64,000 nt of DNA, taken from Solirubrum puertoriconensis. Its GTDB lineage: Bacteria > Bacteroidota > Bacteroidia > Cytophagales > Hymenobacteraceae. Every line of letters starts with the position of its first letter. Position 1 is the first letter of the stretch. Under the pieces are notes generated by a model. That model had not been told where the DNA came from, did not search any database, and saw only the letters and a program-made list of their open reading frames with translations. The stretch lies in NCBI RefSeq assembly GCF_001483135.1, contig NZ_LNAL01000006.1, forward strand, positions 744,003 to 808,002, in the 5' to 3' direction. Positions 52,002 through 63,605 of this stretch are shown piece by piece. The translations under genes were made by a program, and so were the position numbers.

Positions 52002-54254
52002 TTAGGCCGGAAGCGTAATTACAAATTCGGTGTAGTGGCCTTCCTTACTGTCTACGCTGATGCTGCCGCCATGGCCTTTGGTTATAATGTCGTGGCTGAG
52101 CGAGAGGCCCAGCCCCGTGCCTTCGCCCACGGCTTTGGTAGTGAAGAAGGGCTCGAACACGCGCTGTCGCACGGCCTCAGACATGCCGGTACCGTTGTCG
52201 CGCACGCGCACCTCCACGCCGTTTGGCGTGCGCCGGGTGCTGATGCGTACCTCGGGTTGGTAGCCGTTGAGGCTAAACTGCTGACGCTGGCGCACGGCGA
52301 AAAAAGCGTTGGTAAGCAAGTTTAGCAGCACACGGCCCAGGTCCTGCGGCACGGCCTGCACCTCGCTTAGCGTCGTGTCGAAATCGGTGTTGAGCGTAGC
52401 CCGGAAATTTGGGTCTTGGGTCTGAACGCCTTCGTAGGCCAAGCGTAGGTTTTCGGCTGCTAGAGCGTTCAGATCGGTAGCTTCGCGTTGGCCAGTGCCC
52501 GAGCGCGAGTGCTCCAGCATATCTTTGATGATGGAGGATGCCCGCAGGCCGTGTTGGCTGATTTCCTGAAGGTTTTGCTTCAGGCCAGCCAAAATCTCCT
52601 GCTGCAACTCCTGCCCGTTGTGGGCGTGGCTGGTTTGCTGCGGCATGCCATCAATCATGTTGGTGCTCACCTCGGCAAACCGCTTCATAAAGTTGAGCGG
52701 ATTTTGCAACTCGTGCGCAATGCCCGCCGACACTTCGCCCACAAAGGCCCACTTTTCGGCGGCCACCAGTTGGTTTTGTGCCTGGCGCAGCTGGGCCAGG
52801 GTACGCTTGTTAATTTGTAGTTGCCGGTACAAAAACACTCCCAAGCCCGATACTGCCACCACCGTAAACAGCGCAATAAAAAGCAGGCGGTTGCGCTGCC
52901 GCAACTGCAACTCCTGAATGGCGCGCGTTTGCTGCAGCGCGGCAATGCGGGCATTTTGGGCTTGCTCTATTCGCTCGCCCTCGTACTGCGCCACCAAAAA
53001 AGCACTTTGCTCTTGGTGCATCGAATCGGTGAGGGCCATGTACATGCGGGTGTACTGCTGCACTTTGGCCGGCTGCTGGCTCTTAATGTAGAAGCCAATG
53101 ATGTCGCGCAATACCCGGTAGCGCAGAATTTTGAGCCTGCCCGAGGTAGCTTTGTTATAAGCCTGTTGCCAATACTGTTCGGCTACGTTGGGCTGGCGTA
53201 CGGCCTCGTAGTACTTGGCCCAGGCCGCATCCAGCAGAAACTCGCCCGGGCGACCCGAAACACGCAGTTGCAAGGAGTCGGCCAGGTGCTGGGCTCGGGT
53301 AAGCATGGGCCGCACGGGTTGCGTTTGGCCCATACCCAGCAGCACAAAGCTTTTCTGCACCAAGGCGTAGGCCTTGCAAATATGCTTGTGCACTGGGTTT
53401 TGCTTTGTGCCTACCTCCGCAAGGTTTTGATTGGCATACCGTAGCGCATTGGGCATATCGCCTTCCTGCAAATACACCCTCGAGAGCGTCTGCAGGGTAT
53501 AAAACCGCTGCAGGCCCTCCACGTTGTACTTGTCTTCGAGCACCATGGCTTGGCCTAGGTACTGCAGCGCTTTTTGCGGGTTGCCCCAATCGGCATACAG
53601 CGAGCCGGCCACCATCAGCTCGTTCACATAGTATTTGGGGTCGAACTGCTTAAACAAATCAGCAGCGCGCAGGCAGTAGCTAATGGCCTGATTGTAGGCT
53701 CCCATGTGCCGGAAGTAGCCGCTGATTACCAAGTAGCAGGCGGCGGTATTCTCGAGGGAGTTGTGTAGGCGGTAGTAGGCTAGCTTATCCCGGAAATAGG
53801 CGTAGCGCTCCTGCGATTGGTGCAGGCGATTATAAAGCGGAGCTAGGTCGATCAGCAGCCGCGGAATAGGATGATCGAGCCGGTCGAATTCGGCGATGGC
53901 CTGCTTGATGATTTCGAGTGCCTGCTGATCGTTGTGCCCTTTATGCCACAAGGCTACCCCGCGGCGGAGCAACCGATAAGGCGTTTCGTCGATTTGTTGG
54001 GAGCGGGCATTCAGCTCCAGCAGCTCGTCGATTAGGGGCAACGATTGTTCGCGGCCGGAGGCCTCGGTTAGCTCCAGAATGTCAAGCAAATGCACCAACG
54101 TGCGAATGCGCGCACTATCGCTCTGTTGCCGCGGCAAGCTTTTGCGCAGCGAATCGTAGTCGGTTGTCCAGTAGCGTTGATTTGCACGGGCAGGAAGCGC
54201 GCAAAAAAGTTGGATTAGCAGACTGCTAAAGAGGCAAAATGCAATAGTGCGCAC
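52002..54254 (-). CDS. TPR-containing membrane sensor histidine kinase
   Basis: The 750-residue protein starts at a GTG with a signal peptide (IAFCLFSSLLIQLFCALPAR). Residues about 40-400 are tetratricopeptide-like helix pairs (NTAACYLVISGYFRHMGAYN, GDMPNALRYANQNLAEVG), lying in the periplasm. A coiled coil and one transmembrane helix (FIALFTVVAVSGLGVFLY) follow, then a second coiled coil. The kinase core has the H-box GIAHELQNPLNFMKRF near residue 510, N-box VLLNLLTNAFFAV, G1 RDNGTGM, F-box FEPFFTTK and G2 GEGTGLGLSLSHDI. No response regulator is adjacent, so it is an orphan. Confidence 0.93.
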   Translation of the reverse strand: MRTIAFCLFSSLLIQLFCALPARANQRYWTTDYDSLRKSLPRQQSDSARIRTLVHLLDILELTEASGREQSLPLIDELLELNARSQQIDETPYRLLRRGVALWHKGHNDQQALEIIKQAIAEFDRLDHPIPRLLIDLAPLYNRLHQSQERYAYFRDKLAYYRLHNSLENTAACYLVISGYFRHMGAYNQAISYCLRAADLFKQFDPKYYVNELMVAGSLYADWGNPQKALQYLGQAMVLEDKYNVEGLQRFYTLQTLSRVYLQEGDMPNALRYANQNLAEVGTKQNPVHKHICKAYALVQKSFVLLGMGQTQPVRPMLTRAQHLADSLQLRVSGRPGEFLLDAAWAKYYEAVRQPNVAEQYWQQAYNKATSGRLKILRYRVLRDIIGFYIKSQQPAKVQQYTRMYMALTDSMHQEQSAFLVAQYEGERIEQAQNARIAALQQTRAIQELQLRQRNRLLFIALFTVVAVSGLGVFLYRQLQINKRTLAQLRQAQNQLVAAEKWAFVGEVSAGIAHELQNPLNFMKRFAEVSTNMIDGMPQQTSHAHNGQELQQEILAGLKQNLQEISQHGLRASSIIKDMLEHSRSGTGQREATDLNALAAENLRLAYEGVQTQDPNFRATLNTDFDTTLSEVQAVPQDLGRVLLNLLTNAFFAVRQRQQFSLNGYQPEVRISTRRTPNGVEVRVRDNGTGMSEAVRQRVFEPFFTTKAVGEGTGLGLSLSHDIITKGHGGSISVDSKEGHYTEFVITLPA

Positions 54255-54552: not shown

Positions 54553-55593
54553 CTACTTTTTCTCCCGCCGCCAGATGAAACCATCGAGCACGTAGTGTGT
54601 GGTTTGCGGCAGTGCCAGTAGCGGCACCAGCCACGCAAGGGTAGTGGCATCAGCTACGCGCGGCAATTGCTGAAACCAGCCAAATACGGCCGCATGCTCG
54701 CGCCACACCAGCCCGTCCCATATGCCTTCCTCAAAATACGCCAGCATCACCAGCACACCTAGGAAAACCGCCGCCCCGTACTTGCCCGCCCACAACCCGC
54801 TGGGCGAGGCCCTAGGTGCTACGGAGGAAGGCTGCGCCCCGGCAGCCCAAATCAGGGCCAGATAGGGAATGCCGTGCGACACCACGTTGAGCAGGGTAAA
54901 CGCCAAGTCGCCGTTGAAGTACACAATGCCGAAGTACCACGACAACAAAGTGCCGATGACCAGCAAATTGCGCGGTAGGTTGAAGCGGCGCGTTTGCAGC
55001 CATTGCTGCAACTCCTTACTCGCATACAACACCAGCAGCACGGCGTAGGCAGTTGTAGCCAGCAGCCGACCTAGGGGCCAATCCAGCTGCACAAAGTCGC
55101 CATCGACAAACCAGTTGAAGTTGCGGGCAGGCGAAAAGTGCCAGTAAAGCAGCGGGTAAATCGTAGCGTAGTAGATAACGGCCGTATCGAGCCAGCGGTA
55201 GGGCACAGTAGGCTCGTGGCGCGAGTACAGCCGCAAAAAGCCGTACTGCTGCCGGATGAAATGAAAAACTGCCAGGTACGCCAGCACGCGCCAAAACAGT
55301 AGCCCGCTTGCGAGGTGCAGCGCCACGCCCGCGGCGTAGCACAGCACCGGTACTACCACAAACAGCCCCAGCTGCCGGCGCCGGCGCTGCGCATCGAGGT
55401 AGGTGCGGAACAACGTACTGTACACGTGGCTTACATCGACGAGCAGCACCAGGGCCACCCAACCGAGCAGCGGCATGTGTGGGGTGTTGCGGAACGCCGC
55501 AGGCAGCAGCAACACGATTAGCAGCGACACAAAAGGCGGGGCCAGCACAAACAAACCATCGTACCAAGCCGAGCGAATCCAAGGTTGCTTCAT
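54553..55593 (-). CDS. Multi-pass membrane protein with conserved-looking histidines, last gene of polyamine-type operon
   Basis: The 346-residue protein has about nine helices. Several histidines sit at helix ends or in helices: H56 in LVDVSHVYSTLFRTYLD, H111 in VFHFIRQQYGFLRLYSRHE (H126), one in NVVSHGIPYLALIW and one in TTHYVLDGFIWRREKK at the end. This arrangement could hold a metal, as in membrane hydroxylases or desaturases, but the classical HxxxH/HxxHH boxes are missing. I do not recognise the family. It overlaps the oxidoreductase gene by four bases (ATGA) and so belongs to the operon. Confidence 0.72.
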   Translation of the reverse strand: MKQPWIRSAWYDGLFVLAPPFVSLLIVLLLPAAFRNTPHMPLLGWVALVLLVDVSHVYSTLFRTYLDAQRRRRQLGLFVVVPVLCYAAGVALHLASGLLFWRVLAYLAVFHFIRQQYGFLRLYSRHEPTVPYRWLDTAVIYYATIYPLLYWHFSPARNFNWFVDGDFVQLDWPLGRLLATTAYAVLLVLYASKELQQWLQTRRFNLPRNLLVIGTLLSWYFGIVYFNGDLAFTLLNVVSHGIPYLALIWAAGAQPSSVAPRASPSGLWAGKYGAAVFLGVLVMLAYFEEGIWDGLVWREHAAVFGWFQQLPRVADATTLAWLVPLLALPQTTHYVLDGFIWRREKK

Positions 55594-57248
55594 GCTGGTA
55601 GCAGCATTTCGGTTGCCGCCCTGATGCCTTGGTAAAAGGCCTCCTCAAATATGGAAATGCCGCTCAGGTCGGTGTGGGCGAAGTATAGCTTATTGCGGAG
55701 CGGTTGGGCTGCCGCCTGCCGGTTGGAGCCCCACAGGTAGCCCGGTGTGGGCGCCACCATGCCGTGGCCCCACACCCAAACCTCGGCGTGTTGGATGCGC
55801 GGCGTGATGCCCGGGTGCGCCGTTTCGAGCTCGGCCACTACGCGTTGTAGCCAATCGTTGTAGCTGGTTTGGTAAGCTTCGCGCCGGGCCGCGTTGGCAT
55901 CGGGGTGCGAGAGCGGCCAGTACAGGGTAATAACCTGGGGACCTATTGGCTGCGTTACCTGCTGGTGCGTAGCGCTAATGTAACCCACCGACTGGCTGTT
56001 GTAGAGCACATTATCCCAGCACAGCGGCTGGCCGGGGCCCTGCGGCAAACCATCAACCGTGAGGTTGGCAATAACCCAAGGGGCGTGGTGGGGCGCGGGC
56101 GTGAGTTGCGGAGCATCGGCAAGGCCCGCTAGCAGCCGCTGCGTTACGAAGTGCGGCGTAGCCAGCAGTACCTTCCGGGCTTCGAAGCGGGTGGTTTGCT
56201 TGGTGGTGCCGTCGTAGGTGAGTACCTCTACGCCTGTTGCGGTTTCGCGCAGCTGGTAGGCCAGCGTGTTCGGGCGAATACCTTGTGTGGTTTGCCGGCG
56301 TAGCTGCTCTACCAAGTAGCCGTTGCCCTCGGGCCAGGTAAGCACGTCGGCTTGTTCGGCGTTGTGGGCGCGGCCTTTGCGGGCGGCAAAGTAGTGCAAG
56401 CCCGCCCACGCCGATACTTGCTCGGGGGTAGCGCCGTAATCGTCGCGGCAGCTGTACGCCAGAAACCAGCGCAGATACGGCGAACTGAAGCCTTCGCGAC
56501 CTAGATACTCGGCAAACGTAATGGCGTCGAGCTGCCGAAACTGCTCGTCGGCGGAGGAGCGGTCGAGCGGAATGGCAAAGGCATCGAGGCCGTCCGTGCC
56601 CTTGGCGTGGCGCAGCTCCTCAACCAACGCCAGAAAGCGGGCAATCTGTTGGCGGTCGGCATCGGGCACGCCAAACTCGGGCACCAAGCCCTGCTGCCAA
56701 TGCCCGTTGATGTACAATCGCTCTTCGGGGTCGTGGCACAAGTGGTACTCGTTGTAGATGGGCAGCCCATCGGCCGAGTAGCCGGTAATCACGTTTGCCT
56801 CCTGCAAAAACGCGAGCAGCTCGCGGTTGCGCACATCGGGAATGGGCAGGTAGTGCGCGCCCCAGGGATAAGCCGAAACAGCGTTCTGGCCGCTGGCTGC
56901 GTTGCCGCCCACGTGGTTTTCCAGCTCCAGCAGCACCACATCGCTGAGGCCGCTGCGCTGCAACCAGCGTTTGGCCGAAAGGCCCGTTATGCCGCCGCCA
57001 ATAATTAACACCTCCGCACGCTCGGTGCGGGTGGGTGCCGGCAGTTTGCCCGGCTGGCGCAGCAAATGACCTAGGGAGAAATCGGCGCCGCGCATCCCGC
57101 CCTTGATATGCGCCAACGAGGCCGCCGGCGCGCACGAATGCAGCAAGGCAGGACTTAGCATCAGCCCGGTAAGCGCCAAGCCCGTGCGGCTGATAAACTC
57201 GCGCCGGCCAGACGCAAAATTACCGTAGGCGTTTCCTTCTTTGCTCAT
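55590..57248 (-). CDS. FAD-dependent oxidoreductase with Tat/lipobox signal
   Basis: I chose the ATG (MSKEGNAYGNFASGRREFIS); a GTG 15 bases upstream, directly after the previous stop, is possible. The N-terminus has a twin-arginine motif (GRREFISRTGLAL, R15-R16), a hydrophobic stretch and a lipobox-like LLHSC with Cys39, so a folded flavoprotein is probably exported and lipidated. The dinucleotide-binding site is EVLIIGGGITGLSAKRWLQR with VLLELENHVGGNAASG, and a C-terminal FAD segment is in YFAHTDLSGISIFEEAFYQG. The domain order is that of flavin amine oxidases and phytoene-desaturase-like enzymes. Oxidation of a polyamine-type product is inference from the operon. Confidence 0.87.
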   Translation of the reverse strand: MSKEGNAYGNFASGRREFISRTGLALTGLMLSPALLHSCAPAASLAHIKGGMRGADFSLGHLLRQPGKLPAPTRTERAEVLIIGGGITGLSAKRWLQRSGLSDVVLLELENHVGGNAASGQNAVSAYPWGAHYLPIPDVRNRELLAFLQEANVITGYSADGLPIYNEYHLCHDPEERLYINGHWQQGLVPEFGVPDADRQQIARFLALVEELRHAKGTDGLDAFAIPLDRSSADEQFRQLDAITFAEYLGREGFSSPYLRWFLAYSCRDDYGATPEQVSAWAGLHYFAARKGRAHNAEQADVLTWPEGNGYLVEQLRRQTTQGIRPNTLAYQLRETATGVEVLTYDGTTKQTTRFEARKVLLATPHFVTQRLLAGLADAPQLTPAPHHAPWVIANLTVDGLPQGPGQPLCWDNVLYNSQSVGYISATHQQVTQPIGPQVITLYWPLSHPDANAARREAYQTSYNDWLQRVVAELETAHPGITPRIQHAEVWVWGHGMVAPTPGYLWGSNRQAAAQPLRNKLYFAHTDLSGISIFEEAFYQGIRAATEMLLPA

Positions 57249-57263
57249 CTTCAGCTCGGCCAC

Positions 57264-58820
57264 TTAGTGGGTGTAGGGGCCCCAATCTTCCTCGAAATAG
57301 CGTACCAGCGCTTGGTTGTTGAGCTGGTTGATGTCGGTGGGCAGCTCGGCCATATCCGGCGGAAACACCAGCATTTGCCGGATGCTCTGCGGCGTTACGT
57401 AGCGTAGGCCCTTGGGCAAGGGGCCCGCATCGGGGCGCCAGTGGCCGTTTCGGCCGGCCAGCACGTAGCCCCACTCGCCAAACGAGGGCACGTAGAGGTG
57501 GTACGGGATGGTATGGAAGCCCGAAGCCTGCAGCGTGTGGGTAATGCACCAAAACGAGCGCCGCGCCACGTAGGGCGAGGTACTTTGTACCACCATCAGG
57601 CCGCCGGGCGCCAGTAGCTTGTGCAGCTCCTGGTAAAACGAGGTGCTGTACAGCTTGCCGATGGAGTAATTGGAAGGGTCGGGAAAGTCGACCACGAGCA
57701 AGTCGTAGCGGGTGGTGTCCTGTCGTACCCACTGGTAAGCGTCGCCGTTGATCACCTGCACCTTGGGGTGCAGCAAGGCCCGTTGGTTGAGCGCCACCAG
57801 CATTTCGTTGCGCCGGAACAGCTCGGTCATGCCCGGGTCGAGGTCGACGAGGTGGATTTGCTGCAGCTGCGGGTAGCGCAGCAACTCGCGCACGGCCAGG
57901 CCGTCGCCGCCGCCTAGCACGAGCACGCGGCGCGCCCTAGGTAGCGCCTGCATGGCCGGGTGCACCAGGGCCTCGTGGTAGCGGTACTCATCCGAGGAGC
58001 TGAACTGCAGGTTGCCGTTCAGGAACAGGCGCAGCTCGCGGCTGTTTTTGGTAAGCACGATGCGCTGATAAGGCGTGCTTTTGCTGTAAATCACCTGATC
58101 CTGAAAAGCCAAGGTTTCGGTGTAGACTTGGATGCGCTCGGCGTACACAAATCCGGCTCCCAGAAAAAGCAGCGAGGCGGCTACCACGCCCAAAAAGGAC
58201 CGGCGAAAGGAGCGGGTTTCTTCGAAACGAAGCAGCAGCACCGCGGCCACCGCCACGTTGAGCGCCCCGAAAAACAATGAGGTGCGTACCAAACCCAACT
58301 GCGGCACCAGCACCAGCGGAAAGATGAGCGAGGCCAGCAGCGCGCCGATGTAATCGAAGGTGAAAACCCGCGACACGAGGTCTTTGAACTCGAACCGGTT
58401 TTCCAGAATCCGCATCAGCAGTGGAATTTCCAGCCCCACCAAAATGCCCGTGAGGCCCACCAGCGTGTACAAAATCAGGCGGAAGGAGCTGACGTACTCG
58501 AACAGCACAAACAGCAGCGGAGCCGAAATGCCGCCCACCAGCCCCACCATGATTTCGAGGCGGATAAACCACTTCAGCAGCTGCCCATCGAGAAAGCGCG
58601 AAAGCCACGAGCCGATGCCCATGGAAAACAGGTACGCCCCGATGATGGTGGAGAACTGCGTAACGGAGTCGCCGAGCAGGTAGCTGGCCAGCGTGCCCGC
58701 TATCAGCTCGTAAATCAGCCCACAGGTGGCAATAACGAAAACCGAACCTAGGAGCAGGGCCGGTAAATGATCTGGGCCTGCCCGGCGCGGGGGCGCCGGC
58801 AGCACCGGTTGGTTAGCCAT
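57264..58820 (-). CDS. Membrane-fused spermidine-synthase-like protein
   Basis: The 518-residue protein has seven N-terminal transmembrane helices (about 20-225; GLIYELIAGTLASYLLGDSV, FSTIIGAYLFSMGIGSWLSR). A cytoplasmic aminopropyltransferase-like domain follows: VYTETLAFQDQVIYSKSTPY with LRLFLNGNLQFSSSDEYRYH, the nucleotide site VLVLGGGDGLAVRELL, IHLVDLDPGM and YDLLVVDFPDPSNYSIGKLY. These match the putrescine aminopropyltransferase fold that uses decarboxylated AdoMet. The membrane fusion suggests a substrate or product linked to the envelope. It overlaps the DUF350 gene by eight bases. Confidence 0.9.
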   Translation of the reverse strand: MANQPVLPAPPRRAGPDHLPALLLGSVFVIATCGLIYELIAGTLASYLLGDSVTQFSTIIGAYLFSMGIGSWLSRFLDGQLLKWFIRLEIMVGLVGGISAPLLFVLFEYVSSFRLILYTLVGLTGILVGLEIPLLMRILENRFEFKDLVSRVFTFDYIGALLASLIFPLVLVPQLGLVRTSLFFGALNVAVAAVLLLRFEETRSFRRSFLGVVAASLLFLGAGFVYAERIQVYTETLAFQDQVIYSKSTPYQRIVLTKNSRELRLFLNGNLQFSSSDEYRYHEALVHPAMQALPRARRVLVLGGGDGLAVRELLRYPQLQQIHLVDLDPGMTELFRRNEMLVALNQRALLHPKVQVINGDAYQWVRQDTTRYDLLVVDFPDPSNYSIGKLYSTSFYQELHKLLAPGGLMVVQSTSPYVARRSFWCITHTLQASGFHTIPYHLYVPSFGEWGYVLAGRNGHWRPDAGPLPKGLRYVTPQSIRQMLVFPPDMAELPTDINQLNNQALVRYFEEDWGPYTH

Positions 58821-59028
58821 GAATTGCGGAACTGATAATCAGGGCTATGGCGACGATAAATGCGGCCGACACAATAGCCAAAGCGGTGTTGTGCTCCTCA
58901 ATAATCTCTTTCCAGAGCGTGCGCGGCGTAATCTTCTCGAACACGAAAAAACTGATAAACAAAATCGCGATGCCGATAACCGAGTAGATAACCGACGCCG
59001 CGATGAGCTTGAAGTTGAGGTATTCCAT
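58813..59028 (-). CDS. DUF350 (YjfL-like) membrane protein
   Basis: The 71-residue protein has two transmembrane helices (VIYSVIGIAILFISFFVFEK and TALAIVSAAFIVAIALIISS) joined by the conserved short acidic loop PRTLWKEIIEEHNTALA. This corresponds to one half of the DUF350 repeat found in YjfL. DUF350 genes occur beside spermidine-synthase-like and DUF4178 genes in several bacteria, as here. It may form an oligomeric membrane channel or scaffold; that is inference. Confidence 0.88.
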   Translation of the reverse strand: MEYLNFKLIAASVIYSVIGIAILFISFFVFEKITPRTLWKEIIEEHNTALAIVSAAFIVAIALIISSAIHG

Positions 59029-59123
59029 GGGGAGGGATTAGGATCAGGAGTTAGGTTGTGGGTTGGGTTGCGCTTATTGAAGTCGCGCACCAACTGATGA
59101 CGCGGGCTGTAGCCCGGCTGCAG

Positions 59124-59318
59124 TTATTTATGATAAAACCGACCTGTGCGGGTACCAGAGCCACCGCTACCGCCGCTGCGGTAGCCGTTGATGTTCTCGG
59201 TGCTTTCGTTGTCGTCGCCGAGCAGGCGGTTGCCGCGCAGGCCCGCCCACACAAAACCCGCGAAGGCCAATAAGGCCACCACGATGTAATAGCGGAGTTG
59301 GTAGAATTGGCGAAACAT
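59124..59318 (-). CDS. Small membrane protein with Gly/Ser-rich tail
   Basis: The 64-residue product starts at the ATG of MFRQFYQLRYYIVVALLAFA, with one transmembrane helix (about 12-30). An acidic linker (LLGDDNESTENINGYRSGG) and a Gly/Ser-rich C-terminus ending RTGRFYHK follow. No family is recognised. It sits 12 bases after the DUF4178 gene and 95 bases before DUF350, all on one strand, so it is very likely part of the operon. Confidence 0.68.
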   Translation of the reverse strand: MFRQFYQLRYYIVVALLAFAGFVWAGLRGNRLLGDDNESTENINGYRSGGSGGSGTRTGRFYHK

Positions 59319-59330
59319 AGACAAGTACAG

Positions 59331-60653
59331 TTAGGCGCCTTGGGGGCCGTAGTCGCTGTTTTCCCAGCGCTGCTGCTCGTGAAAGCGACGCCGAAGAAAC
59401 AGGATGGCGGGGTACACAAACAGTGCGCCCAGCAGCAGAAACAGATTCGACTGCAGCGTAGCGTTTTCGGTTACGCGCAGGCTGAAGGTGGTGGGCATGC
59501 CGCCCTGCGACGCGGGATAGATGTTGATGTGGTAGCGGCCCGATGGAACTTCGGCCAGCACCGCATCGGCCGAGGTGCTGCCTTCGCTCCAGCTTTCGCC
59601 GCCCTCGTAGCCGTGGTAGTACTCAATGCTTTTGGTGAACTCGTAGCTCTGGCCGGTTTTCTCGTTAACCAGCGTCACGGGTAATTCCAGCCAAGCGTTG
59701 TCAACATAGGCGTTTATATCAACCGCAATGGCGGTGGGGCCGTGCACCTCAAACGAATGCGTTACAATGTTGGCGCTGGGGCCTGCCGTGCTGCCACGAG
59801 CGGTATCGGGCTGCGTCGAGAAGTTTTCGTTCACGAGCAGATTGCTCGGGTTGGTCGCCGACATAAAGAACTGCGCCACCACCGTCAGCATGCACATGAA
59901 CAGCGTGAAGCGCAGCAGCGGGAGCCAGGTGTCTTCGCCCGGCGCCGGCTGAACAGCCCCCGTGCCGCTGCGCCACGGCATTTCGTGGCTGGGCACGCCA
60001 AAGGCTTTGGCTACGGCCTTGGGCTCGATGTGCTCGGCGCGGTACCACTGCTGCTTTTTGCCGAACCGTTCTTTTTCCTCCACCAGCATGTGCGGCGGAC
60101 TGATGTATTCGGCTACGAACAGCTTCTCGTCGTCGAAAACATCGTAGTCGTACTCGCCCACGGCATAGAGCACCTTGGGCTGGTACTTGTTGTACAGCCG
60201 GTAATCCAAATCGCCACTGGCTATGTAGGCGCTACGCGAGTTCGGAAACTGCACCTTGTAAAGGCGCTCGGTAGGTTGAATAAACGTCCAGTGGCCCTCG
60301 TACACGGCCAGTTGGGCGTACTTATCGGGGGCACTGAACAACGTGTACTCGCCCCAGCGGTACTGCTGAGCGTTCAGCTCGCAGCGCACCGAATAGCCCG
60401 CCACCACGTAAGTGCTGCCATCGAGCATAACACCCGAAGCACCTAGGGGAATAACTTGCTTCGGTTGCTGGGTGCTAGCCTTAAACTCCCCGATGACGCG
60501 CGGCGGCTTTGGGTCTTCGTACTCGAAATACGTATGGCACGCCGGGCAGCCGTAGTGCGTGCTGTTTTCGGTGTCGTAGTACGCGATGGTGGTATGGCAC
60601 TGCGGGCACTCGAGCTGCGCCGTAGGCACCGATGGGGTAGCGGTTTCGCTCAT
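59331..60653 (-). CDS. DUF4178 domain protein with zinc ribbon
   Basis: The start is MSETATPSVPTAQLECPQCH. The 440-residue protein has a zinc-ribbon start (C16-x2-C19 and C36-x2-C39). DUF4178 units follow over about 50-190 (GASGVMLDGSTYVVAGYSVR, QYRWGEYTLFSAPDKYAQLA, YDVFDDEKLFVAEYISPPHM). A transmembrane helix near 245-268, a periplasmic beta domain (about 290-395; SFEVHGPTAIAVDINAYVDN) and a second helix near 405-425 complete it. The function is unknown; it recurs with AdoMet decarboxylase and DUF350 genes. It overlaps the preceding gene by four bases. Confidence 0.88.
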   Translation of the reverse strand: MSETATPSVPTAQLECPQCHTTIAYYDTENSTHYGCPACHTYFEYEDPKPPRVIGEFKASTQQPKQVIPLGASGVMLDGSTYVVAGYSVRCELNAQQYRWGEYTLFSAPDKYAQLAVYEGHWTFIQPTERLYKVQFPNSRSAYIASGDLDYRLYNKYQPKVLYAVGEYDYDVFDDEKLFVAEYISPPHMLVEEKERFGKKQQWYRAEHIEPKAVAKAFGVPSHEMPWRSGTGAVQPAPGEDTWLPLLRFTLFMCMLTVVAQFFMSATNPSNLLVNENFSTQPDTARGSTAGPSANIVTHSFEVHGPTAIAVDINAYVDNAWLELPVTLVNEKTGQSYEFTKSIEYYHGYEGGESWSEGSTSADAVLAEVPSGRYHINIYPASQGGMPTTFSLRVTENATLQSNLFLLLGALFVYPAILFLRRRFHEQQRWENSDYGPQGA

Positions 60654-61006
60654 CGGCACACTTCGGTTTTGCTTTGCTCGGTAGCCTGAAAGTAGCGCAA
60701 CGTGGCCGCGTACAGGGCTTGCACGGTGGCTGAGTTGTCGCGCTGAAAATTCGACAAAAATACGTCGAACGTAGCCAGGCCGAACTCGGGCCAGGTATGA
60801 ATGCTTAGGTGCGACTCGGTAAGCGCTACCACGGCAGTGAAGCCCCCATTACCCGGAAAGCGGTGGTAAGCTTCGCCTACTTTGCTCAGGCCCAACTGGT
60901 GTATCTGTGAATCGAAAAACACCCGGCAGCCTACCATATCGGTTAGCTGCGGCACGGGTGCGATAAACGTGGCCAGCACGTGCAGGCCCGGGGTATAAGT
61001 GCTCAT
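60650..61006 (-). CDS. S-adenosylmethionine decarboxylase family protein, Cys-less active site
   Basis: The 118-residue protein matches the short bacterial AdoMet decarboxylase type. It retains the self-processing site ALTESHLSIHTWPEFG, where E64-S65 would be cleaved to give the pyruvoyl group on S65, and H70. In characterised enzymes a catalytic Cys follows in a DVFTCG-type motif; here the equivalent segment reads DVFLSNFQRD, with Ser85. Homologues with altered active sites have been reported to act as pyruvoyl-dependent ornithine or arginine decarboxylases, so the substrate here is open. It is the first gene of the operon running to 54553. Confidence 0.88.
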   Translation of the reverse strand: MSTYTPGLHVLATFIAPVPQLTDMVGCRVFFDSQIHQLGLSKVGEAYHRFPGNGGFTAVVALTESHLSIHTWPEFGLATFDVFLSNFQRDNSATVQALYAATLRYFQATEQSKTEVCR

Positions 61007-61116: not shown

Positions 61117-61794
61117 TCAGCTAATCAGCTTGTAGCCCACGCCGCGCACGTTCACGATTTGCACCTGCGGATCGTCTTTGAGGTAGCGGCGCAGGCGGGT
61201 GATAAACACATCGAGGCTGCGGCCGTTGAAGAAGTTGTCGTCGCCCCATAGCTCCTGCAGCACGGCGGTGCGCTCCAGCACTTGGTTGCGTTGGTCGTAG
61301 AGGCGCTTGAGCAGCTCGGCTTCGCGGTGGGTTAGGGCCTCTTCGTGGGGGCCTAGGTGCAGGCGTTGCTTCAGGTGGTCGAAGTGATACTGGCCGATTC
61401 GAAGGGTGGCGGGCTCATTGGGCGCAGCGGCAGGCGCCTGACCTAGGCGGGCTCGGATGCGCACAATCAGCTCATCCATGCTGAAGGGCTTTTTGAGGTA
61501 GTCGCTGCCGCCCAGTTCAAAGCCGCGCACCACGTCGGCAGGTTGCGAACGAGCCGTCAGGAAGATGATGGGCACGGTGCGGTTTTCGCGCCGGATTTGC
61601 TCGGCCAGCGAAAAGCCATCGAGCTTGGGCATCATCACATCCGCCACCACAATATCGGGACACTGCTGCCGAAACAACTTCAGGCCCTCTTCGCCATCGG
61701 CGGCGTATTGCACCGCGAAGCCTCGCACCTCCAGGCTGTCTTTTACAATCATACCTAGGGCTGGTTCGTCTTCGATTAGTAGAACAGAGGGCAT
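61117..61794 (-). CDS. OmpR-family response regulator
   Basis: The 225-residue protein has a receiver domain with acidic pocket E8-D9, phospho-acceptor D52 in DIVVADVMMPKLDGF, Thr in PIIFLTARSQ and Lys in DYLKKPFSMDELIV. A winged-helix DNA-binding domain (about 130-224; LTHREAELLKRLYDQRNQVL, NFFNGRSLDVFITRLRRYLK, VNVRGVGYKL) follows. It is the cognate regulator of the kinase ending at 61990; the two genes are separated by a 195-base spacer holding a large inverted repeat. Confidence 0.95.
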   Translation of the reverse strand: MPSVLLIEDEPALGMIVKDSLEVRGFAVQYAADGEEGLKLFRQQCPDIVVADVMMPKLDGFSLAEQIRRENRTVPIIFLTARSQPADVVRGFELGGSDYLKKPFSMDELIVRIRARLGQAPAAAPNEPATLRIGQYHFDHLKQRLHLGPHEEALTHREAELLKRLYDQRNQVLERTAVLQELWGDDNFFNGRSLDVFITRLRRYLKDDPQVQIVNVRGVGYKLIS

Positions 61795-61846
61795 GTTGTT
61801 GGAGGAATTGAGAGCGGAAGGTGAGAAGCTAAAGTTATAGTTAAGG

Positions 61847-61976
61847 CTAGCTCCCCTCCTCAGATGAGGAGGGGTTGGGGGTGGTTGATTAATCGTTGAC
61901 CGGCAACTGGTACCAGCTTTCTAGCTCTATCCTTTCAACCACCCCCAACCCCTCCTCATCTGAGGAGGGGAGCTAG
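61847..61976. repeat. Large inverted repeat between kinase and regulator genes
   Basis: Perfect 42-base arms (61847-61888 and 61935-61976) flank a 46-base centre. Each arm also contains a self-complementary CCCCTCCTCAGATGAGGAGGGG segment interrupted at its midpoint, so each arm can fold alone as well. From memory, CCCCTCCTC/GGTTGGGGGTGGTTG sequences are dispersed in Hymenobacter-like genomes. Here it interrupts an operon and would form a strong hairpin in the mRNA. Confidence 0.8.
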
Positions 61977-61989
61977 TATTAGCCTCGAA

Positions 61990-63456
61990 CTAGTTGGGCA
62001 GCCACAGGCTGAACTCGCTGCCGCGGTTTGGCTCGCTGCGCACGGCAATGCGGCCGCCGTGGCGCTCCACCACTTGCCGCACGTAGTACAAACCGAGGCC
62101 AAAGCCTTTAATGGGGTGCAGGTTGCCTGTGGGCACCCGGAAGAACCGATCGAAAATGGCATCCTGGTAGTTCTTCGGAATGCCAATGCCGTCGTCTTGC
62201 ACCGTGAGGCGCCAGCCGCCGTTGTCGTCGTGGTGGCCCCGTATGGCAATGCTTACCTGCTCGCGCGAGTACTTAATGGCGTTGTCGATGAGGTTGTTGA
62301 TGACGTTGCCCACGTGCAGCGGATCGAGGTGCACCGAGTCAGAGGGGGCAATGTCGACGGTGAAGTGCACTGGTTTGGTGGCCTTCAGCTGGTGGCGCGT
62401 TACCAGCTCGCTCACCAGCTCGGCCGGGCGCACAGGCTCGGGGTTGATGGTAAGCGTTTGGCGCTCCTCCACGGCAATGTTTAGCACTTTCTCCACCAAA
62501 TCGGAGAGGCGCTGCAACTCGTTGCGCGAAATGCTGAGGTAGGTTTGGGCCTTTTGCGGATCGTTGAGGGCGCCGAAATGCTGCATGGCCTCCACGGCTG
62601 CCGATACCGTTGCCAGCGGCGTCTTCAACTCGTGCGTCATGTTGTTGATGAAGTCGTTCTTCACCTCCGAGAGCTTCTTCTGCTTCAGGATGGTGCTCAG
62701 CATCAGCAGAAAGCATCCCGTGGTTAGGCCCAGCAGCAACACCGAGCCACCCAGCAGCCCGCCCATTTGCCGCAAGATGTAGTACGTGGGCGTCGGGAAC
62801 GACGCCTGCACGTACAGCGAGCGGAGCGGATTAAGCGGAACGGGGGGCGTTTGTACGGGGTAGCCCACCGGGGCGGGTTTGCTGGGCGGCAGGGCACCTA
62901 GGCCAGCGGCGCGCGGGACCGAAAGGGTATCCAGCTTCAGGTCGGAGTCGGCGCCGCGCAGGCGCAGCTCGGCGCGGTAAGCCTTGGTTAGCTTCTGCAG
63001 ATCGACATTGCGGCCACCGGCCCAATCGTCGATGATGATACGCGAAATATTGCGTGCCACCGTATCGGCCTCGGCTGAAGTACGGAGGGAAGGCCGCCGC
63101 TTGTGAATCTCGATGCGCTTGGTAGCAGCAAAGCGGCGTTTGCCTTGGCGGCGGTTGGTATCGGTAGGAGAGGCACTGTCGGGCGACACCAGCACGATGC
63201 GGTTGACGCTGCCGTTTTCGGAAGTGAACTGCCGTACAAATAGCTTGTTGGGCACGCGGCCGGGCTCCATCACCAGCTCGCGCGCACCGGCCAGTAGTTG
63301 GCGCTGCGCGGTAGCCAGCAAGGCCTCGCGCACCGTGCGGTTGAACTGGGCCGTGGTGAGCTGGTAGGTATTGTAAAGCCAATACGCCTGAAAGCCGTTG
63401 ATGCCCAGGATGCAAACCGCCATGAGCCAGAAGATAGAGCGGATGCGGCTTTTCAT
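61990..63456 (-). CDS. Membrane sensor histidine kinase
   Basis: The ATG of MKSRIRSIFWLMAVCILGIN gives 488 residues. A first helix (about 8-28) and a second (about 230-255; GLLGGSVLLLGLTTGCFLLM) enclose a periplasmic sensor region of about 200 residues without a recognised domain. The kinase core has H275 in NNMTHELKTPLATVSAAVEA, N-box VINNLIDNAIKYS, G1 QDDGIGIP, F-box FDRFFRVPTG and G2 GFGLGLYYV. It pairs with the OmpR-type regulator downstream. The sensed signal is unknown. Confidence 0.94.
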   Translation of the reverse strand: MKSRIRSIFWLMAVCILGINGFQAYWLYNTYQLTTAQFNRTVREALLATAQRQLLAGARELVMEPGRVPNKLFVRQFTSENGSVNRIVLVSPDSASPTDTNRRQGKRRFAATKRIEIHKRRPSLRTSAEADTVARNISRIIIDDWAGGRNVDLQKLTKAYRAELRLRGADSDLKLDTLSVPRAAGLGALPPSKPAPVGYPVQTPPVPLNPLRSLYVQASFPTPTYYILRQMGGLLGGSVLLLGLTTGCFLLMLSTILKQKKLSEVKNDFINNMTHELKTPLATVSAAVEAMQHFGALNDPQKAQTYLSISRNELQRLSDLVEKVLNIAVEERQTLTINPEPVRPAELVSELVTRHQLKATKPVHFTVDIAPSDSVHLDPLHVGNVINNLIDNAIKYSREQVSIAIRGHHDDNGGWRLTVQDDGIGIPKNYQDAIFDRFFRVPTGNLHPIKGFGLGLYYVRQVVERHGGRIAVRSEPNRGSEFSLWLPN

Positions 63457-63605
63457 GAGATGACGAAGCAAGTGTGCACCAACGAAAATACTACCCCCCG
63501 GCGGGCTGTAAGTGGCCGTTAACACACTTTAACACAATATAACAGTGCTTTACACGGCAGCATCGGTGCTTTGCAAGCGTCAATCAACCCAACTCTCTTG
63601 CTGCC

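Follow-up and report, generated by a model that had tools for sequence, protein, structure and literature searches.

Gene clusters that join an S-adenosylmethionine (AdoMet) decarboxylase (AdoMetDC), a fusion of an MFS domain with spermidine synthase (SpdSyn) and a DUF350 protein were reportedly described by Li et al. in 2019 (Biochem J 476:2579). Their core, that is, SpeD, a membrane SpeE, DUF350 and DUF4178, is already known as a cluster without an assigned function, and it appears in print with the PspA/CesT-Tir operons of Ravi et al. (2024), as far as the available part of that paper goes (PMC11237479). In the open-access literature we found no substrate for the DUF350-linked clusters of SpeD and seven-transmembrane (7TM) SpdSyn. 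Here, we analyze a related operon of Solirubrum puertoriconensis, with genes for a SpeD-like enzyme, a DUF4178-type protein, a small membrane-anchored protein, a DUF350 protein, a membrane SpeE, a flavin adenine dinucleotide (FAD) protein and a nine-helix membrane protein of 346 aa. It lies in a stretch of 64,000 nt (GCF_001483135.1, contig NZ_LNAL01000006.1, positions 744,003-808,002 of the forward strand), hereafter the window, whose own positions serve as operon coordinates. We propose, with a probability of roughly 0.55, that the operon serves to modify its own small membrane protein after translation, by placing an aminopropyl group on the C-terminal lysine. The comparisons below suggest that the enzymes build a spermidine-like group on this last lysine, in the cell envelope, rather than free polyamines. 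We assign the acceptor by comparative genomics and infer all reactions.

The proposed acceptor is encoded at 59124-59324 (minus strand) and has 66 aa from a TTG start or 64 aa from the ATG at 59318. Proteins of this kind consist of a single transmembrane (TM) helix and a variable tail rich in Gly, Ser and His; the Gly/Ser-rich tail of the window copy ends Phe-Tyr-His-Lys (FYHK), and the codons of the final His-Lys, the putative modification site, occupy 59127-59132 (minus strand). A readable DUF4178-to-SpeE region was available for 89 related loci, and every one of them has the His-Lys end. In 87 of these a separate sense open reading frame (ORF) ends exactly in His-Lys, compared with 0 of 319 antisense ORFs and 41 of 20,296 background ORFs, and in the other two (L107, 5085-6587; L127, 9695-11089) the DUF4178-type protein itself has this end. 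A Lys-ended tail is also fused to the DUF4178-type protein in L138 (10580-11911), and these three fusions link the tail and the DUF4178-type protein functionally. When 88 peptides, the window copy included, were aligned over their full length, His and Lys were the sole invariant columns (88/88), with one further Gly near-invariant (86/88). The pattern lies at the protein level, since all four codon combinations for His-Lys and all three stop codons are used among the 82 peptides counted. Because the side preceding the helix is the more positive one in 70 of 87 small proteins, the tail probably lies outside the inner membrane. The first-pass annotation had proposed an "envelope-linked" substrate, which these data support; it had left that substrate unspecified and passed over the small protein, the best candidate.

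Terminal lysines recur in membrane-SpeE operons of other types. In 11 of 19 such loci (the second gene order described below, the PspA type and others), the tail of a lipoprotein or of a fused DUF4178 protein ends GFGK, GGFGK, GSGK or FGYGK, and five of these 11 are second-order loci with the FAD and 346-aa genes. The gene immediately before SpeE ends YFGK in L040-L042. Among plasmid loci, tails end GPSHK or GPTHK in Novosphingobium, SYGSHK in Burkholderia (three loci), RHGK in Gemmatirosa, SSGK in Alteromonas and RVK in Tritonibacter. After the His-Lys and Gly-Lys endings had first been seen, 23 new membrane-SpeE loci were fetched from a phylum search; of the 60-mers checked, one per locus, none is common to earlier loci, and no tail matches an earlier His-Lys peptide identically over 25 residues. 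In all 22 new loci that lack a ligase, a sense ORF with a [GH]K end lies in the 2.6 kb upstream of SpeE, a limit that was chosen after a first look and then applied as one rule to all new loci. Within these upstream 2.6 kb, 25 of 268 ORFs end [GH]K (three of them look like chance), compared with 10 of 3,411 in the rest of the 23 loci. The remaining new locus, L179, carries a ligase of family PF03738, and its tail ends GG.

That ligase family, GSP_synth, supplies the contrast. PF03738 occurs in 32 of 395 genomes, and 30 ligase loci were examined. A tail protein could be identified in 22 of them, ending GG in 10, SS in six, GS in two, HA in two, FS in one and SL in one; the other eight have no tail that we could find, or a truncated or frame-split one. 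None of the 22 tails ends in Lys, the last residue being Gly, Ser or Ala in 21 and Leu in one. By its FYHK end the window tail lacks the small final residue typical of ligase-type tails, a criterion defined in this analysis and not taken from the literature. In Escherichia coli, YgiC and YjfC belong to PF03738 according to Pfam and are named peptide-spermidine ligases by NCBI; beside them, the DUF1190 proteins YgiB (L155, 3245-3916) and YjfM (L156, 4388-5026) end GG, which may possibly be the acceptor site there. Where a membrane SpeE, SpeD and a GSP_synth-type ligase are combined (L133, L134 and L179), the tails likewise end GG. In the sequences compared, then, the terminal residue changes with the enzyme: it bears an amine where an aminopropyltransferase is present, and it is mostly small, with its free carboxylate, where a ligase is. 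The genome of the window organism itself has one PF03738 ligase elsewhere (G000:C8:319331, L194), whose upstream tail protein ends RGFGG; this gives the genome two tail systems that differ in their terminal residue.

The genes around the small protein form a conserved set. Among 295 genomes of the same class as the window organism, the 346-aa protein was matched in 22 (19 clear cases, one fragment and two marginal matches), and in 18 of the 19 clear cases its gene is located with the FAD gene and membrane SpeE, being unlinked in G149. Full-length membrane SpeE is found in 33 of the 295 genomes (matches above 300 bits), with some match at E ≤ 0.001 in 93. The FAD protein occurs in 21, all inside the 33 SpeE-positive genomes, and its gene lies beside the SpeE gene or one gene off (hypergeometric P = 5e-24, with the relatedness of the genomes ignored). 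Clustering of this extent greatly exceeds chance expectation. A scan of named genomes gave at least 556 relatives of the 346-aa protein; in the best 80 of these loci, the FAD gene is present in 79, membrane SpeE in 77, a DUF4178-type gene in 76, SpeD in 71 and DUF350 in 65, some of the missing genes falling past contig or locus ends. The FAD and 346-aa genes are not adjacent in some Hymenobacter loci among these best 80, which are mostly Bacteroidota by title; the set also appears there in metagenome-assembled genomes (MAGs) labelled Verrucomicrobia, Oligoflexia, Cyanobacteria, FCPU426 and Alphaproteobacteria, labels that are used as given and that may reflect mis-binning. A second gene order brings membrane SpeE, the 346-aa gene and the FAD gene together in six genomes (G036, G103, G237, G241, G266 and G056), with SpeD and full-length DUF350 in the stretch of five of the six and a second SpeE in G036 and G237. 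Pfam confirms PspA in two second-order loci (L037 and L041) and, beside such operons, in L137 as well. On plasmids of Novosphingobium and Burkholderia the FAD gene accompanies SpeE, with no 346-aa gene in the stretch.

These surveys bear out the first-pass annotation in treating the FAD oxidoreductase and the 346-aa protein as members of one conserved set: the lack of co-occurrence in related genomes that it had named as fatal to the idea was looked for, and the genes were found together. Its statement that DUF350, DUF4178, SpeD and SpeE homologs recur as clusters, sometimes with PspA, agrees with the three PspA loci. The suggestion that the oxidoreductase and the last membrane protein are a Bacteroidota extension holds for most loci and fails for the MAGs of other phyla and for the plasmid FAD genes. 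Thus, the FAD and 346-aa proteins are true partners of membrane SpeE, mostly but not strictly in Bacteroidota.

Membrane SpeE (57264-58820, minus strand) joins a 7TM domain to a spermidine-synthase-like domain that is predicted to be periplasmic, and it matches the membrane polyamine aminopropyltransferase model NF002956/PRK03612 (678 bits) and PF01564. Hydropathy of 90 aligned proteins places seven TM segments before the SpdSyn domain, and the more basic loops fall on alternate sides so that this domain would lie outside. The motifs GGGDG (303-307) and DFPDP (378-382) are conserved at 97% or more, and a GxG(D/E)G rule has been given for the motif that binds decarboxylated AdoMet (dcAdoMet), according to the available part of the source (PMC10349129). 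The seven predicted TM helices (NF002956) set the protein apart from the soluble aminopropyltransferase of a canonical speD-speE pair.

Its putative supplier is a SpeD-like pyruvoyl enzyme of 118 aa (60650-61006, minus strand; AdoMet_dc PF02675, 66 bits). The AdoMetDC residues S63, H68 and C83 (Thermotoga maritima numbering), of which C83 is essential, are given in the portion available of PMC10407285; by alignment and motif survey, the window SpeD keeps the cleavage Ser (in an ESH motif) and the processing His and has Ser85 at the position of Cys83, which separates it from canonical enzymes. Ser stands at this position in 79 of 94 SpeDs from nine-helix-positive loci and Cys in all 23 from nine-helix-negative loci. 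The change is therefore confined, among the loci examined, to a large subset of nine-helix-positive operons, and as a mark of the whole nine-helix type it was rejected, 15 of the 94 keeping Cys. We also considered the window SpeD as a possible substitute for ornithine or arginine decarboxylase (SpeDC or SpeDA); loss of a Pro conserved in AdoMetDC marks SpeDA, the arginine decarboxylase, and four residues mark SpeDC, the ornithine decarboxylase. The window protein keeps the Pro of HTWPE, possibly the residue in question.

The FAD protein (557 aa; 55590-57263, minus strand) is a flavin amine oxidase by profile (Amino_oxidase PF01593, 45.4 bits against a cut-off of 19.8) and by modelled fold. It has a Tat-type RRxF motif and a lipobox Cys; R20 is invariant and C44 is present in at least 90% of 47 sequences. 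Its model (pLDDT 89.6) matches monoamine oxidase (MAO) and putrescine oxidase with Z 28.6 and root-mean-square deviation (rmsd) 3.3 over 419-422 residues, and spermidine dehydrogenase with Z 25.9 and rmsd 4.2 over 451 residues, at 15-18% identity to its fold relatives. Protoporphyrinogen oxidase, which is within 1 Z, and others score almost as high, so that the substrate cannot be read from the fold alone.

The nine-helix protein (54553-55593, minus strand) is polytopic and, by the searches that follow, a new family. The window protein reached no Pfam model at E ≤ 1 and no NCBIfam model at E ≤ 0.1, an alignment of 55 members gave a best Pfam E value of 0.0045 without a family, and a sequence search of the PDB with the family profile returned no match at E ≤ 5. 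A fold search with its model (pLDDT 89.4) likewise returned no match at E ≤ 0.001; on a second look the best score, Z 7.0, was to microbial rhodopsins and may reflect just a common helix arrangement. An origin from the Brp/Blh carotene dioxygenases (PF15461) found no support, the hhalign probability being 0.6 against an alignment of nine ORFs from PF15461 loci, with no family match. Five invariant His residues (56, 111, 152, 240 and 333) and many invariant Asp and Glu residues suggest a metal site, and hence a candidate metalloenzyme.

Two further membrane proteins complete the set. The DUF4178-type protein (59331-60659, minus strand; likely ATG start at 60653) has an N-terminal CxxC...CxxC ribbon and two predicted TM helices separated by about 135 residues. 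The label "DUF4178 with zinc ribbon" given to it earlier holds for the visible ribbon, and the domain name was not reached, since the window protein is too diverged to match PF13785 at E ≤ 1; a distant homolog in L127 does match. DUF350 is present in a half-length form of 71 aa (58813-59028, minus strand; PF03994, 52 bits) with two TM helices according to hydropathy. SpeD, 7TM-SpdSyn and DUF350, the combination that defines the DUF350-linked cluster, are thus together in the window, and PspA, which defines the PspA-type variant, is missing from the operon.

On our reading, SpeD would make dcAdoMet, and membrane SpeE would move the aminopropyl moiety from it onto the epsilon-amine of the last Lys of the small protein. 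Lysine resembles putrescine in that its side chain is an aminobutyl amine; the resulting N-epsilon-(3-aminopropyl)lysine would thus be a spermidine-like group made directly on a tail that is flexible and anchored in the membrane. The exported oxidase, of putrescine-oxidase/MAO fold, may then oxidize or cleave the aminopropyl-Lys group, the nine-helix protein may carry out a further, perhaps metal-dependent, step, and the DUF4178 and DUF350 proteins may hold the tail or present it. According to the predictions, the SpeE domain, the tail of the small protein and the oxidase all lie outside the inner membrane. Aminopropylation followed by oxidation, which the first-pass annotation had put forward, is upheld as a reasonable idea. 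In the sister ligase operons, a glutathionylspermidine-synthetase-like ligase would add spermidine to a small-residue tail, to a similar end. We tentatively extend this, at clearly less than even odds, to a bacterial C-terminal code for membrane-anchored low-complexity tails: Lys ends would be aminopropylated by the periplasm-facing 7TM SpeE and small ends would receive spermidine from the ligase, both gaining a spermidine-like cap, and the seven-gene variant would then oxidize the capped Lys outside the membrane, possibly to a reactive aldehyde that crosslinks envelope components.

Several observations count against a modification of the terminal lysine. There is no convincing Lys tail in L128, L129 and L132, tail candidates in L130, L131 and L147 are uncertain, L148 ends VK, and L038 is without a Lys tail in the stretch fetched. 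The His-Lys loci are related, with 84 distinct last-30 tails among 87 and L026 and L098 apparently from one genome, so that the P values overstate independence. The gene set is not rigid either: the nine-helix gene is absent from two FAD-positive genomes and unlinked in one, and a strict tie of the His-Lys end to the FAD gene had to be rejected, because second-order loci have the FAD gene with Gly-Lys ends (FGK, FGYGK or YFGK) and L170 and L175 end in His-Lys although the stretches fetched for them showed no FAD gene. As for the enzymes, the decarboxylase activity of the window SpeD is uncertain, because Ser replaces the catalytic Cys83, and the topology of membrane SpeE is a hydropathy estimate in which two of the seven segments lie two residues apart. 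A periplasmic SpeE domain would furthermore need dcAdoMet outside the cytoplasm, and we know of no route for it.

The membrane or export features shared by SpeE, the FAD protein, DUF350, the nine-helix protein and the small proteins would also suit a set of enzymes that aminopropylates and oxidizes an envelope lipid or a small membrane molecule, with the small protein as partner or regulator and its C-terminal Lys as a docking signal. The available part of PMC11237479 does propose other aminopropylation substrates and a role in membrane structure; nothing relevant to lipid aminopropylation was among the open-access literature matches listed. We regard this alternative as unlikely, as it leaves unexplained why the tail ends in Lys with SpeE-type enzymes and nearly always in Gly, Ser or Ala with ligase-type ones. 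The same correlation is left unaccounted for if the DUF4178 protein, the nine-helix protein or a protease reads the His-Lys end as a signal for recognition, sorting, metal binding or stability, unrelated to aminopropyl transfer. His at position -2, the many His residues of the tails, the five invariant His of the nine-helix protein and, at some loci, the fused tail and DUF4178-type protein would fit such a signal, but other membrane-SpeE operons keep Lys and not His, which makes Lys the shared element, and we consider the signal quite unlikely.

Ordinary spermidine synthesis, with a synthase tethered to the membrane, would account for SpeD and SpeE homologs in one set and for the intact dcAdoMet-binding motif. 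The operon has no amine source, however, and the synthase is a 7TM fusion; Cys83 of SpeD is replaced by Ser, and the genome appears to have a separate polyamine route. The absence of an ornithine or arginine decarboxylase had been noted before and stands for the operon, whereas the genome holds a SpeA-like decarboxylase of 465 aa beside an arginase-like gene (G000:C6:479556, L142) and a gene of the deoxyhypusine synthase family. The decarboxylase scores well below the NCBIfam cut-offs and its substrate is uncertain; together, the presence of these three genes makes a separate putrescine/homospermidine route plausible. The single match to PF01564 in the genome is membrane SpeE itself. We found nothing on Hymenobacter polyamine content in the open-access literature, subscription papers being partly outside the scope. 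Bacterial homologs of a fungal fusion of a membrane domain with an aminopropyltransferase are stated, in the accessible part of PMC12803844, which cites Li 2019, to be experimentally uninvolved in spermidine or spermine synthesis. An ordinary spermidine operon is for these reasons very improbable; the separate route, the single PF01564 match and the published statement speak in turn for the proposed modification of the tail.

ORF calling in the window places all seven genes on the minus strand at 54553-61006. The first-pass description of seven tightly coupled leftward genes, with a widest gap of 95 bases, was reproduced when coordinates, overlaps and gaps were re-derived. The 3' part of speD overlaps the start of the DUF4178-type gene, the choice of the ATG start giving an ATGA overlap. 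Gaps of 6 nt and 95 nt precede and follow the small-protein gene, DUF350 and membrane SpeE overlap by 8 nt, SpeE and the FAD gene abut, and the FAD and nine-helix genes overlap by 4 nt. A promoter scan gave no promoter-like site, and terminator-like sites (18 against 8.4 expected) are scattered inside genes on both strands and are not informative. The operon lacks a GSP_synth ligase, and Pfam searches of its seven genes and of the flanking regulator and kinases found no PspA, the rest of the genome not having been searched for it. Upstream lie an OmpR-type response regulator and a histidine kinase (61117-63525), and downstream a second histidine kinase (52002-54254).

Hypusine is a known counterpart of the proposed modification: deoxyhypusine synthase transfers an aminobutyl group from spermidine to an internal Lys of eIF5A. 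Both would place a polyamine-derived group on a protein lysine, the hypusine group being aminobutyl and its lysine internal. If our reading is true, the operon would add a new post-translational modification akin in spirit to hypusine, it would give polyamine enzymes a reason to sit with envelope-stress genes, and it would link them to E. coli YgiBC and YjfMC. The C-terminal Lys that follows the enzyme type is a specific, testable candidate acceptor for clusters for which we found no published substrate. In the open-access literature, many subscription papers being outside the scope, we found no mention of the nine-helix family, the FAD link or the terminal-Lys rule; the terminal-Lys pattern is likewise missing from the available part of PMC11237479.

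An architectural parallel to the window SpeE is fungal NHMT, a 7TM enzyme of the endoplasmic reticulum that is annotated to the spermidine synthase family and that methylates the N-terminal His of a peptide (PMC10349129, available part). The likeness is one of architecture, a 7TM region with a SpdSyn-like domain, and since NHMT modifies the end of a peptide, a substrate of that kind is plausible for the window enzyme too; NHMT is without the acidic residue of GxG(D/E)G, whereas the window protein keeps it. The FAD protein shares its fold with putrescine oxidase, MAO and spermidine dehydrogenase and has, in addition, export and lipobox motifs. With the clusters of the Ravi 2024 and Li 2019 type, to the extent of the published parts available, the window operon shares SpeD, 7TM-fused SpdSyn, DUF350 and a DUF4178-type protein, a lipoprotein and PspA occurring in related loci; it differs in having no PspA among its seven genes, a half-length DUF350 and a tiny His-Lys peptide in place of the lipoprotein, and its additions are a flavin amine oxidase that bears export motifs and the new nine-helix family. 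Finally, the ygiBC and yjfIJKLMC operons of E. coli resemble the window operon in pairing a membrane-anchored protein of low-complexity C-terminus with polyamine chemistry, and the yjf operon resembles the related loci in its DUF350 (yjfL) and PspA (yjfJ) genes. These operons have a GSP_synth ligase where the window operon has SpeD and SpeE, and their tails end in Gly-Gly where that of the window ends in His-Lys.

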